From the NCBI GenBank assembly GCA_003075315.1, contig QDFQ01000002.1:22820-86819 (forward strand): a DNA stretch of 64,000 nt. The letters are read 5' to 3'. This document shows, piece by piece, positions 59,154 through 63,502 of the stretch; the stretch's first letter is position 1; every line of letters starts with the position of its first letter. A program made the translations under genes and the position numbers. This DNA is from Arthrobacter sp. TPD3018. Lineage in GTDB: Bacteria; Pseudomonadota; Alphaproteobacteria; Sphingomonadales; Sphingomonadaceae. A model generated the notes under the pieces. That model was not told the DNA's origin. It was given only the letters and a program-made list of their open reading frames with translations, and ran no database searches.

Positions 59154-61067
59154 ATGGATTTCAGGGACACGCAGGGTGAGGCCATGACCGATACGATCGA
59201 CGCCACCGTCGCCGCCGAGGCACCCGCCGCCGCAGACGCGAATGGCGGCAGCAAGGCGATCCACGCCCGCCCCTATCCCGTCGAGGTCGATCACAGCCGC
59301 GACGCGCTGCTGACCGATTTCGGCAAGGAAACGCTGAACGATCGCTACCTGCTGCCGGGCGAAAGCTATCAGGACCTCTTCGTCCGCGTCGCATCAGCCT
59401 ATGCCGACGATGCCGCGCACGCGCAGCGCCTGTACGATTATATCAGCCGCTTGTGGTTCATGCCCGCGACGCCGGTGCTGTCGAACGGCGGCACCGGCCG
59501 CGGCCTGCCGATCAGCTGCTACCTCAATTCGGTGCCCGACAGCCTGAACGGTATCGTCGACACCTGGAACGAGAACGTCTGGCTCGCATCGCGCGGCGGC
59601 GGCATCGGCACCTATTGGGGCAGCGTGCGCGGCATCGGCGAACCCGTCGGTCTCAACGGCAAGACCAGCGGCATCATCCCCTTCGTCCGTGTGATGGACA
59701 GCCTGACGCTCGCGATTTCGCAAGGGTCGCTGCGCCGCGGTTCGGCCGCCTGCTACCTCGACGTCAGCCACCCGGAAATCGAGGAATTCCTCGAAATCCG
59801 CAAACCCAGCGGCGACTTCAACCGCAAGGCGCTGAACCTGCACCACGGCGTGCTGCTGACCGACGCCTTCATGGAAGCGGTACGCGACGGCCGCGAATGG
59901 AACCTGCTCAGCCCCAAGGACGGCACCGTCCGCGCGACGCTCGACGCGCGCTCGCTGTTCCAGAAGCTCGTCGAAACCCGCCTGCAGACCGGTGAGCCCT
60001 ACATCGTCTTCGCCGATCACGTGAACAAGGCGATGCCCAAGCATCACCGCGACCTGGGCCTGAAGGTCTCGACGTCGAACCTGTGCTCCGAAATCACGCT
60101 GCCGACGGGCCGCGACCATCTCGGCAACGATCGCACCGCGGTGTGCTGCCTGTCGTCGCTCAACCTCGAAACGTGGGACGAGTGGAAGGACGACAAGGTC
60201 TTCATCGAAGACGTGATGCGCTTCCTCGACAACGTGCTGCAGGACTATATCGACCGCCACGAACCGGGCATGGAACGCGCCGCCTATAGCGCCGCGCGCG
60301 AACGCTCGGTCGGCCTCGGCGTCATGGGCTTCCACTCCTTCCTCCAGGCGCGCGGACTGCCGTTCGAAGGCGCGATGGCGAAGAGCTGGAACCTGCGCAT
60401 CTTCAAGCACATCAGCGCGCAGGTGAACCAGGCGTCGATGACGCTCGCCGCCGAGCGTGGGCCCTGCCCCGACGCCGCCGACGTCGGCGTGATGGAGCGG
60501 TTCAGCTGCAAGATGGCGATCGCGCCGACCGCGTCGATCAGCATCATCTGCGGCGGCACCAGCGCGTGCATCGAGCCGATCCCGGCGAACATCTACACGC
60601 ACAAGACGCTGTCGGGCAGCTTCTCGGTCAAGAACCCGTATCTGGAAAAGCTGCTGAAGGAGAAATCCAAGAACAGCGACGCGGTGTGGAATTCGATCCT
60701 CGAACATGGCGGCTCGGTCCAGCACCTCGACTTCCTGTCGGTGGAAGAGAAGGACTGCTACAAGACCAGCTTCGAAATCGACCAGCGCTGGCTGCTCGAA
60801 CTTGCCGGTGACCGCACGCCCTATATCGACCAGGCGCAGTCGCTGAACCTGTTCATCCCGGCCGACGTCGAGAAGTGGGACCTCCTGATGCTCCACTTCC
60901 GCGCCTGGGAGCTGGGCATCAAGTCGCTCTATTACCTGCGCTCGAAGAGCGTGCAGCGCGCGGGCTTCGCCGGATCGGGCGGCGTGGAAGCGGACAACAC
61001 CATCGCCGCGCCGAAGTTCGAGATCGGCGAGACGACGGACTATGACGAGTGCCTGGCGTGCCAGTGA
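59154..61067 (+). CDS. nrdA: Ribonucleoside-diphosphate reductase alpha subunit, class I
   Basis: 637 residues. Active-site cysteines appear in GLPISCYLNSV, STSNLCSEITLP and CCLSSLNL; the C-terminal redox pair is ECLACQ. It makes deoxynucleotides with NrdB, using the NrdB tyrosyl radical. No N-terminal ATP-cone is evident, which agrees with the shorter length (E. coli NrdA 761). Start ATG at 59154 (AAGGGACGG upstream) or at 59184 (GGTGAGGCC upstream) is open. Confidence 0.95.
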   Translation: MDFRDTQGEAMTDTIDATVAAEAPAAADANGGSKAIHARPYPVEVDHSRDALLTDFGKETLNDRYLLPGESYQDLFVRVASAYADDAAHAQRLYDYISRLWFMPATPVLSNGGTGRGLPISCYLNSVPDSLNGIVDTWNENVWLASRGGGIGTYWGSVRGIGEPVGLNGKTSGIIPFVRVMDSLTLAISQGSLRRGSAACYLDVSHPEIEEFLEIRKPSGDFNRKALNLHHGVLLTDAFMEAVRDGREWNLLSPKDGTVRATLDARSLFQKLVETRLQTGEPYIVFADHVNKAMPKHHRDLGLKVSTSNLCSEITLPTGRDHLGNDRTAVCCLSSLNLETWDEWKDDKVFIEDVMRFLDNVLQDYIDRHEPGMERAAYSAARERSVGLGVMGFHSFLQARGLPFEGAMAKSWNLRIFKHISAQVNQASMTLAAERGPCPDAADVGVMERFSCKMAIAPTASISIICGGTSACIEPIPANIYTHKTLSGSFSVKNPYLEKLLKEKSKNSDAVWNSILEHGGSVQHLDFLSVEEKDCYKTSFEIDQRWLLELAGDRTPYIDQAQSLNLFIPADVEKWDLLMLHFRAWELGIKSLYYLRSKSVQRAGFAGSGGVEADNTIAAPKFEIGETTDYDECLACQ

Positions 61068-61115: not shown

Positions 61116-61174
61116 CCCCCCTCGCCCTTCCGCGCCTGCGGCGCTCCCTCCCACAAGGGGAGAGGGAACAGGTG
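61116..61174. repeat. Additional inverted half-copy of the DUF559-associated repeat
   Basis: CCCCCTCGCCCTTCCG... to CACAAGGGGAGAGGG, a third and more diverged copy in opposite orientation to the adjacent 61180-61242 arm, so 61116-61242 is one long palindrome. Confidence 0.7.
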
Positions 61175-61179
61175 AACCT

Positions 61180-61242
61180 CCCTCTCCCCTTGTGGGAGAG
61201 GGAAGGGGCCCGCGGCCGCAGGCCGTGGGAAGGGTGAGGGGG
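61180..61242. repeat. Left inverted repeat of the DUF559 unit
   Basis: 63 bp. Compared with the reverse complement of 61634-61694 it differs by three substitutions and two single-base gaps. The matching ends read CCCTCTCCCCTTGTGGGAGA and GTGAGGGGG (left copy). Confidence 0.85.
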
Positions 61243-61626
61243 AATGCGGAAGGCCTGACCAAGCGCCAGCAGCTGCCCGCACTCGCGGTCAACCGATCGC
61301 GCAGCTTGCGCACGGCGATGGGCGAACCCGAACGCCGTCTCTGGCATGCTTTACGCGAGGCGCTGCCCGAGGCGAAATTCCGCCGACAGGTTCCCCTCGG
61401 TCCCTATCACGCTGATTTCTGCTCGCATGGTCACCGACTGATCATCGAAGTCGGCGGCGACGACCACGCCGCCAAAGTCGAACGCGACGCCGCCCGAACC
61501 ATTTTCCTCCAGAACGAAGGCTATGACGTGATCCGCTTCGCCAATGCCGATGTGATGGAAGCCATCGACGGCGTCGTGTCGACAATCGCCCGTGCAGTCG
61601 CGGCCAAGCAAAAGGGCTGCCCGTAA
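61234..61626 (+). CDS. DUF559 (Vsr-like endonuclease fold) protein between inverted repeats
   Basis: About 130 residues from a GTG at 61234 that lies inside the left inverted repeat; an ATG at 61318 is the alternative start but would lose part of the conserved N terminus (VNRSRSLRTAMGEPERRLWHALRE). The core LGPYHADFCSHGHRLIIEVGGDDHA and FLQNEGYDVIRFANADVM follow the DUF559 pattern, a PD-(D/E)XK-like fold; DFCSHG, IIEVGG and the trailing Lys/Arg are the putative catalytic positions, although the usual VDG is VGG here. It sits between nrdA and DUF2171. Role unknown. Confidence 0.75.
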   Translation: MRGNAEGLTKRQQLPALAVNRSRSLRTAMGEPERRLWHALREALPEAKFRRQVPLGPYHADFCSHGHRLIIEVGGDDHAAKVERDAARTIFLQNEGYDVIRFANADVMEAIDGVVSTIARAVAAKQKGCP

Positions 61627-61633
61627 TGGACAG

Positions 61634-61694
61634 CCCCCTCACCCTCCCACAGCCTACGGCTGCGGGCCCCTCCCTCTCCCACAAGGGGAGAGGG
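61634..61694. repeat. Right inverted repeat of the DUF559 unit
   Basis: 61 bp, starting CCCCCTCACCCTCCCAC and ending CACAAGGGGAGAGGG, inverted relative to 61180-61242. It lies 8 bp after the DUF559 stop and between the convergent DUF559 and DUF2171 genes. Confidence 0.85.
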
Positions 61695-62440: not shown

Positions 62441-63502
62441 ATGTCCCTCCTCCAAGCCTCCAAGCAGTACAAGCCGTTCGAATACCCCTGGGCGTTCGAA
62501 TTCTGGAAGCGTCAGCAGCAGCTCCACTGGCTCCCCGAAGAGGTGCCGCTGGGCGAGGATTGCCGCGACTGGGCGCAGAAGCTGACCGATCACGAGCGCA
62601 ACCTGCTGACGCAGATCTTCCGCTTCTTCACCCAGGCCGACGTCGAGGTGCAGGATTGCTACCACGAAAAGTACGGCCGCGTGTTCAAGCCGACCGAGAT
62701 CAAGATGATGCTGACCGCGTTCAGCAACATGGAGACGGTCCACATCGCCGCCTACAGCCACCTGCTCGACACGATCGGCATGCCCGAGAGCGAATATGGC
62801 GCCTTCCTCGAATATGCCGAGATGAAGGAAAAGCATGATTACATGCAGAACTTCGGCGTCGACAGCGACGAGGACATCGCCCGCACGCTCGCCATGTTCG
62901 GCGGCTTCACCGAAGGCGTGCAGCTGTTCGCCAGCTTCGCGATGCTGATGAACTTCCCGCGCTTCAACAAGATGAAGGGCATGGGCCAGATCGTCAGCTG
63001 GTCGGTGCGCGACGAGTCCCTGCACTGCGAGGGCATCATCAAGATGTTCCACACCTTCGTCGCCGAACGCCAGTGCCTGACCAAGGCGGTGAAGGACGAT
63101 ATCGCCGACGTCTGCCAGACCACGATCCGGCTCGAGGACAATTTCATCGACCTCGCGTTCGAAATGGGCCCGGTCAACGGCATGACGCCCAAGGAGATCA
63201 AGAAGTACATCCGCTACATCGCGGACTGGCGCCTGGGCCAGCTCGGCCTGAAGCCGATCTACATGATCGACGAACACCCCCTCCCCTGGCTCGCCCCGCT
63301 GCTCAACGGCGTCGAGCACGCCAACTTCTTCGAAACCCGCGCGACCGAATATTCGAAGGCCGCGACCAAGGGCCAGTGGAACGACGTCTGGGACAGCTTC
63401 GACAAGCGCCAGAAGGCCAAGGCGGTCAAGCCGGCGAACGAGGACCTGGGGCTGCTCGATGGCGGTGACATGTTCTCGCGCGCTGGGGTCGCGGCAGAGT
63501 AA
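62441..63502 (+). CDS. nrdB: Ribonucleoside-diphosphate reductase beta subunit, class I
   Basis: 353 residues. Di-iron and tyrosyl radical region ETVHIAAYSHLLDT keeps Glu, His and the radical Tyr; a second metal cluster is in DESLHCEG (Glu-x-x-His). It supplies the radical to NrdA. No ATP-cone at the N terminus. Separated from nrdA by about 1.4 kb holding the DUF559 unit, DUF2171 and two small membrane genes. Confidence 0.96.
   Translation: MSLLQASKQYKPFEYPWAFEFWKRQQQLHWLPEEVPLGEDCRDWAQKLTDHERNLLTQIFRFFTQADVEVQDCYHEKYGRVFKPTEIKMMLTAFSNMETVHIAAYSHLLDTIGMPESEYGAFLEYAEMKEKHDYMQNFGVDSDEDIARTLAMFGGFTEGVQLFASFAMLMNFPRFNKMKGMGQIVSWSVRDESLHCEGIIKMFHTFVAERQCLTKAVKDDIADVCQTTIRLEDNFIDLAFEMGPVNGMTPKEIKKYIRYIADWRLGQLGLKPIYMIDEHPLPWLAPLLNGVEHANFFETRATEYSKAATKGQWNDVWDSFDKRQKAKAVKPANEDLGLLDGGDMFSRAGVAAE

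Follow-up and report, generated by a model that had tools for sequence, protein, structure and literature searches.

DUF559 nuclease genes bracketed by inverted triplex-motif repeats: a candidate two-part selfish system

The window, by which we mean the whole stretch of 64,000 nucleotides that was analysed, carries between nrdA and nrdB a short DUF559 gene enclosed by two inverted repeats (Table 1). An earlier note made from the letters of the window alone had described two inverted repeats with three substitutions and two one-base gaps between them, a third, diverged half-copy to the left of the unit, a DUF559 gene between the repeats, and a GTG start inside the left repeat, and each of these features was recovered: re-alignment of the two window copies in inverted orientation gave 92% identity with the same differences, the half-copy could be located, the gene product lying between NrdA and NrdB matched PF04480 with an E of 6.3e-29, and in-frame GTG codons at 61192, 61225, and 61234 all lie within the left arm, leaving the exact start uncertain. 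Of the three substitutions, two compensate for each other, exchanging a G-C for an A-T pair in the stem of the arm's small inner hairpin, so that the stem is preserved while its letters drift, and the third falls in the loop of the same hairpin. The outer third arm is more complete in two relatives (L118, L120) and unrecognisable in two others (L117, L119). No intron, intein, or interrupted gene was seen around the DUF559 gene of the window, the location being an intergenic repeat pair.

Table 1. Coordinates, in window positions, of the nrdA-nrdB locus and of the parts of its repeat arms
Feature	Position	Strand	Remarks
nrdA, ribonucleotide reductase large chain	59154-61067	+	left neighbour
Outer third arm, diverged	61119-61166	-	tail 61119-61127; small hairpin 61132-61144; decayed hairpin A 61148-61166
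Left repeat	61180-61242		63 bp; inverted copy of right repeat
Left arm hairpin A	61179-61203	+	S 61179-61188; loop 61189-61193; S' 61194-61203
Left arm hairpin B	61205-61229	+	occupies turn between S' and tail; compensatory change relative to right arm
Left arm tail AGGGTGAGGG	61231-61240	+	mirror of S' GGGAGAGGGA, one A to T
DUF559 (PF04480) EDxHD/Vsr-like nuclease gene	61192-61626	+	stop codon 61624-61626; Pfam domain about 61291-61599
Right repeat	61634-61694		61 bp; inverted copy of left repeat
Right arm tail	61636-61644	-	
Right arm hairpin B	61646-61670	-	
Right arm hairpin A	61672-61694	-	
nrdB, ribonucleotide reductase small chain	62441-63502	+	right neighbour

The window genome (4.01 Mb) has two DUF559 genes. 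The second (L010; genome G000, contig C1, ~1430-1900) also has inverted arms of the same plan, of a different class and with different letters, and scores 17 in the flank test described below, under its cut-off of 20. We note that the arms of a DUF559 copy on a Sphingobium plasmid (L387) resemble those of this second gene. Repeat places in the window genome number 18 by one hairpin pattern, two of them being the arms of the window gene, and 30 by a looser pattern; two places (L006, L007) are two-armed copies without DUF559.

DUF559 is a widespread domain that still bears the Pfam name of a domain of unknown function. The window protein matches its profile at 100.5 bits (Pfam curated cut-off 20.6) and keeps every invariant column of a 37-sequence DUF559 alignment, including E27, D55, E66, H72, and D79, and it has a G at the nearly invariant D68. 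The earlier note had read the core as VGG and had suggested that the enzyme may be inactive. The reading of the core stands: the motif ExDG is found in 64 of 69 loci of the family to which the window genome belongs, EVGG occurs only once, in the window copy, and the D-to-G change is private to this copy among the loci compared. As for inactivity, the private change speaks for it, while the retention of all invariant residues and a dN/dS of 0.15-0.31 at the nrdA-nrdB site (ten pairs from five species, with the repeat-coded first 20 codons excluded) speak against it; this ratio indicates that the DUF559 gene at this site is under purifying selection. In a Foldseek comparison, the AlphaFold2 model of the window protein (mean pLDDT 85.7, pTM 0.75) matched NGO0050 (3hrl, E 1.4e-6), the homing endonuclease I-Bth0305I (3r3p, E 3.3e-5), and, more weakly, Vsr (1cw0, E 3.4e-3), and a sequence profile used with hmmsearch recovered NGO0050 and I-Bth0305I (3r3p, E 2.2e-4). 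Judged from the predicted fold, the solved structures nearest to DUF559 are therefore NGO0050, then I-Bth0305I, then Vsr, and the invariant E27, D55, H72, and D79 are probably the residues behind the EDxHD motif name. A published comment also places a cyanobacterial DUF559 gene in the EDxHD homing family (PMC9403480, accessible part). Among the anti-phage defence families of PADLOC-DB, none matched the window protein at E 0.1.

We surveyed 199 genomes of the family, 175 of which have DUF559 (0 to 14 copies per genome), and took 72 loci, namely the two of the window genome and 70 from among the best-scoring matches; three at contig ends (L052, L054, L085) were dropped, leaving 69. For each locus, the 300 bp on either side of the domain were aligned as inverted repeats with a cut-off score of 20. 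An inverted flank pair was present in 56/69 loci at a score of at least 20 and in 48/69 at a score of at least 25, while 13/69 stayed under 20. The identical test on imaginary genes moved by 1100 bp gave 0/138 and shuffled flanks gave 0/69, so that the bracketing put forward in the earlier note is beyond chance. Aligned as direct repeats, the flanks reached 20 in 22/69 loci, in part because each arm is itself palindromic and perhaps also because of nearby duplications. When the upstream flank of one locus was paired with the downstream flank of another, 38/207 pairs reached 20 because loci share arm classes.

Outside the family, arms bracket 20/38 loci of other Alphaproteobacteria (shifted control 0/76) and 14/29 of other Pseudomonadota (shifted control 1/58), one locus with too short flanks (L199) having been left out. 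Among the best 80 loci on named genome contigs, 58 of the 73 testable ones are bracketed (shifted controls 0/176). In this and the accompanying viral set, six genome loci and L295 were left out for short flanks, L305 was excluded beforehand, and L259, which owed its high score to a run of N, was also excluded, giving 58/73 rather than 59/74. Arm-bearing members come from Xanthomonas, Comamonas, Devosia, and Rhodopseudomonas and from metagenome bins labelled Chloroflexi, Rokuibacteriota, and Omnitrophota; such bins can be mis-sorted, in contrast to a plasmid record of Deinococcus proteolyticus with a near-perfect arm pair (score 48.5). In a hand-picked set of loci from a plasmid collection and E. 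coli, 4/10 reach a score of 20. We conclude from these alignments that the bracketing of DUF559 genes by inverted arms is real and general across many lineages.

Two further observations concern the carriers and the orientation of the arms. Viral contigs (L294-L317) carry DUF559 genes, with inverted arms in 9 of the 22 tested, and phages or proviruses may carry units between hosts. In a Neisseria gonorrhoeae record (L384), two motif copies at 588-620 and 1201-1234 flank a DUF559 gene in direct orientation, with an additional inverted match downstream.

That the repeat belongs to a known family went unnoticed in the earlier note. We parsed 309 arms with a hairpin from loci scoring at least 16. 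From the outside toward the gene, an arm consists of a pyrimidine strand S, a short loop, a purine strand S', a turn, and a tail of purines. Among two- and three-base turns TT is the commonest (56), followed by TTG (21), CTG (16), TTA (15), and CCG (10); in 96/276 counted arms the tail lies more than 15 bases away, and in those that were read a small hairpin occupies the gap. In sequence, the tail repeats S' as its mirror image: S' is asymmetric in 247 of the 305 usable arms, of which 167 are better fitted by the mirror and 14 by a direct copy, while 66 fit both equally well. Across 101 distinct S'/tail pairs, with the tail searched within 70 bases and a pattern A allowed to meet A or T, the mirror score was 0.894 compared with 0.799 when partners were shuffled (sd 0.008, highest 0.818, 500 permutations), and the direct-copy score was 0.818 compared with 0.795. 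Under strict-identity placement (91 distinct pairs), the tail base facing G is G in 609/637 cases, and the tail base facing A is A in 116, T in 64, G in 7, and C in 5. The third-strand code of purine-motif triplexes is G.GC, A.AT, and T.AT. The tail substitutions fit this code, and because A-to-T is a transversion, purine richness alone does not explain the pattern. The idea that a tail T serves as part of the start codon (GTG or ATG) of the nuclease was rejected as a general reason: the upstream tail carries such a codon in 99/231 loci, and it is in frame and open in only 19 of these 99.

The arms of DUF559 genes are thus, by their sequence plan and covariation, the intrastrand triplex motif (BoxC/PIT/TM). 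The window arm has the same succession of S, loop, S' (GGGAGAGGGA), turn, and mirror tail (AGGGTGAGGG), its turn being a small hairpin that is longer than the turn of E. coli BoxC, and we predict that the window arms can form a triplex. According to Holder et al. 2015 (PMC4666352), a motif of this kind occurs in more than 260 genomes, and the E. coli motif folds as a triplex in vitro by CD and NMR; the MG1655 genome has 23 copies with TTA or CCG as second loop, and the accessible part of the paper describes increased rearrangement around the motif and states that remnants of transposases or integrases were never found nearby and that no functional class was apparent among its E. coli neighbours. 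Other repeat families fit less well. The CGTC repeats of Alphaproteobacteria (PMC3733652, accessible part) were dropped as candidates, the arms having neither CGTC nor GACG, and the Caulobacter CIR repeats (PMC2229807, accessible part) are likewise long two-arm intergenic repeats of Alphaproteobacteria but contain GANTC methylation sites, of which the window arms have none. In Rfam at E 1, the window repeat gave 15 weak matches (14 microRNA families and one small RNA), all far under the gathering scores. In two genomes at the L096 site (L371 261-283 in G548 and L372 341-363 in G544), another palindrome, resembling CATCAAAGTAC..CTTTGATG, sits inside the hairpin loop of a triplex motif, so that one repeat family is nested within another.

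Arms and proteins are not associated at random. On a DUF559 tree of 60 labelled loci, stem class changes 11 times, whereas 300 shuffles gave 20.7 changes on average (range 17 to 22). Two DUF559 genes of the same genome have unlike arms (mean similarity 0.28, 5 pairs), and the nearest protein from another genome has like arms (0.69 compared with 0.40 overall). The Mantel correlation between protein and arm similarity is weak (0.15, with 24/2000 permutations as high). Together, these comparisons indicate that arm class follows the DUF559 protein tree.

Hairpins of the motif also occur in large excess over the gene. In the 199 family genomes we counted 5529 hairpins and 465 DUF559 matches, so that at most about 930 hairpins can be gene-linked; gene-less copies therefore far exceed gene-linked ones. 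Twenty repeat sites of the family were picked by hand: six consist of a single arm, one is a DUF559 gene reached via its repeats (L101), and in the other 13 (one of these with unlike arms) a pair of hairpins encloses a short core but no gene. Conversely, among the matches listed, six of the seven close hairpin pairs that lie 350-760 bp apart enclose DUF559 (L048, L061, L073, L101, L327, and G082:C1:48715-49104), the exception being L328. The earlier note had likened the unit to a RAYT/REP pair and had held that repeats at many sites with no link to DUF559 would speak against it. Taken literally, such sites are indeed abundant; however, because a system with REP/RAYT-like logic predicts many DUF559-free repeat sites, their abundance fits that logic.

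Across the 199 genomes, the number of hairpins climbs with the number of DUF559 genes (medians of 2, 2, 8, 25.5, 35, and 63 for 0, 1, 2, 3, 4-5, and at least 6 genes; Spearman 0.67), and one gene as compared with none does not raise the count. The same trend holds within genera (41 up, 7 down, 2 ties), with 0/2000 within-genus permutations reaching the observed value. We considered whether this link is an artefact of each gene's own two arms and rejected this explanation: after subtraction of two arms per gene, the link is weaker yet persists (Spearman 0.52; within genera 32 up, 10 down, 8 ties, p 9e-4). A class-specific test, in which a labelled gene should go with more gene-less repeats of its own stem class, was not significant for the two classes examined (7 compared with 47 genomes, p 0.31; 12 compared with 42 genomes, p 0.19), labels covering the fetched loci only. 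One family genome (G045) contains 78 hairpins of the motif, and a search relaxed to E 10 found no DUF559 in it; here either the gene was lost, or it was missed in the draft assembly, or the repeats are served by another factor.

Whole units come and go at given sites. For 11 sites in one genus, the two flanks were joined without the element between them and searched for in 26 genomes of that genus. Among the loci whose match spans the junction, 18 were inspected, at five sites of which two are DUF559 units; a motif hairpin was present at the junction in 0/18, and both arms were missing together with the core. No target-site duplication was seen at the five sites, where the flanks of the empty loci are only 72-83% alike and the exact ends cannot be read. 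Five further loci were inspected at the L073 site of genome G175: three hold DUF559 units (L362, L363, L365), whose proteins share 50-79% identity with the L073 protein, while the remaining two hold other sequence with neither DUF559 nor motif. At other sites, congeners have repeats of another class or no repeat at all. These comparisons indicate that units are whole in some species and wholly absent in others.

At the nrdA-nrdB site itself, a DUF559 gene is present in 8 of 30 examined loci (30 of 57 among the matches listed), five of the proteins being 72-100% and three 42-46% identical to the window protein, and 22/30 loci are without the gene. Relatives with an empty nrdA-nrdB site, for which the earlier note had proposed a search, thus exist, and their flanks are too diverged to place the exact ends. 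The note had also held that empty sites lacking both repeats and any duplication would count against a mobile unit; such sites were found as far as the diverged flanks permit. Because the arms are absent and duplication is unseen at empty sites, insertion by a transposase that makes duplications is unsupported. By contrast, the REP/RAYT-like logic suggested in the note is well supported by the bracketing in many lineages, the excess of hairpins, and the presence or absence of whole units at orthologous sites. As a separate observation, a long palindrome of another kind, built around a TTGCGAGC..GCTCGCAA core, lies downstream of nrdA in L123 (1865-1931, genome G257), near the position that DUF559 occupies in the window species; several repeat families may use the place downstream of nrdA as a landing site.

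We suggest that DUF559 genes and their arms probably form a selfish, REPIN/RAYT-like two-part system made of a Vsr/EDxHD-type nuclease and triplex-forming ends, in which the nuclease cuts the arms and copies spread. The gene-bearing form would be a short EDxHD/Vsr-like endonuclease gene between two inverted triplex-motif arms, and its non-autonomous copies would comprise REPIN- or MITE-like pairs that lack the gene, together with solitary BoxC arms. An arm would fold when single-stranded, perhaps behind the replication fork; the nuclease would recognise a folded arm of its own class and cut at or near it; and new intergenic sites would then receive, through repair or re-annealing, a copy of a gene-less pair or of the entire unit. 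The genomes compared show directly that the genes are bracketed, that tail and S' covary as mirror images, that arm class matches the protein tree, that the copy numbers are linked, and that units turn over between species; from this we infer that DUF559 binds and cuts the arms and that the spread is driven thereby.

The strongest rival is that DUF559 is a homing endonuclease: the motif pairs would spread by other means, and the gene would home into gene-less pairs by cutting them and recombining through the arms. The second-closest solved structure, the catalytic domain of I-Bth0305I, lends itself to this reading, as does the statement of a review (PMC3943268, accessible part) that I-Bth0305I forms a dimer on a target spanning almost 60 bp, about the length of a window arm. 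The occupation of the L073 site in three congeners by units with proteins of only partial identity to that of G175 points the same way. Homing alone, however, does not require that repeat number climb with gene number; the 18 empty loci at five sites are without the arms as well as the core; and arm class tracks the protein tree. We therefore regard homing as rather unlikely.

A second rival holds that the pair serves the host, DUF559 repairing or resolving triplex or mismatch lesions and being kept beside its structures with no mobilisation. The purifying selection at the nrdA-nrdB locus would suit such a role. So would the Caulobacter VsrA protein, the one DUF559 protein for which genetic work was found, which is described as having such a domain and on which the SOS response depends in cells without a cytosine methylase; its authors interpret it as a mismatch-repair enzyme acting in DNA damage linked to cytosine methylation, and the accessible part of their paper does not mention a repeat bracket (PMC12907096). 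Up to 14 DUF559 copies per genome look selfish rather than housekeeping, though, and neither the unlike arms on two genes of one genome nor the fact that one congener has a whole unit where another has none is expected of a host function, which makes this reading distinctly improbable. Least credible by far is a landing-site bias, in which an unrelated process spreads motifs that accumulate around small dispensable intergenic genes such as DUF559: motifs do hit the same places in different species, and the accessible text of PMC4666352 found no functional class among E. coli motif neighbours, but inverted arms lie near both gene ends and hardly ever in the shifted controls, six of the seven gene-sized pairs among the matches listed hold DUF559, and protein clade and arm class agree.

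The proposed selfish two-part system shares features with several known ones. Like REPIN/RAYT systems (PMC3733652, accessible part), it combines palindromic inverted pairs with one gene that lies between inverted copies of a repeat class belonging to that gene; gene-less copies are in excess, and the repeat class that flanks the gene is dispersed in the genome; unlike them, it would employ an enzyme of the Vsr/I-Bth0305I-type fold rather than an HUH (Y1) tyrosine transposase, and its arms have a mirror tail. With the EDxHD homing endonucleases (I-Bth0305I, PDB 3r3p) it shares the fold, the conserved E, D, H, and D, and possibly self-spread, but the window gene lies inside an intergenic repeat pair and not in an intron, intein, or interrupted gene; with the Vsr mismatch endonuclease (PDB 1cw0) it shares the fold family. 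The arms agree with the triplex motif of Holder et al. 2015 (PMC4666352) in having S, loop, S', second loop, and mirror tail, in being intergenic in E. coli, in their many copies, and in their inverted pairs, and the E. coli second loops TTA and CCG are also found among the linkers counted here. The difference is that the accessible part of that paper reports no mobility gene near the motifs, whereas here the pairs bracket DUF559 and their number tracks that of DUF559.

We found no paper in the open-licence PMC text that links DUF559 or YcjD with triplex repeats. Judging from the open-licence literature, what is new is the pairing of repeat and nuclease, each already known by itself. BoxC/PIT/triplex repeats have been known since the 1990s, and we know of no element class that combines a Vsr-like nuclease with triplex-forming ends. 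It is possible, and we put it forward only tentatively, that the units represent a new class of mobile element with one gene, whose ends are recognised as intramolecular triplexes by an EDxHD/Vsr-type nuclease, that BoxC/PIT/TM repeats throughout bacteria derive from this class, and that the mirror covariation reflects selection for triplex recognition. The link to DUF559 points to a missing partner for this repeat family. If the reading holds, the mirror covariation would be evolutionary evidence for the DNA triplex as a functional structure in bacteria, and a kind of selfish element without a transposase would be added to those known. The pairing also makes the questions of how triplex repeats spread and what DUF559 does testable together.

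In E. coli, the DUF559 gene is ycjD. Motif copies or remnants lie only downstream of ycjD, within about 200 bp, in the two E. coli records inspected. A query of ycjD and its surroundings is covered to at least 80% in 3364/5426 genomes, and the sapF side in 5371/5426. A clean empty site was sought and rejected, since three strains lacking ycjD have efflux genes there, which is a swap; the efflux operon at the ycjD-less site has been named eefRABCD (PMC12817139, accessible part). Motif places per genome, with the ycjD place excluded, average 3.4 versus 1.9 (39 and 21 among the matches listed), a comparison confounded by lineage. Between sapF and fabI, a long palindrome at the sapF end overlaps the annotated start of ycjD (L319, 2564-2606), and shorter palindromes at the sapF end persist where efflux genes replace ycjD (L320-L322).
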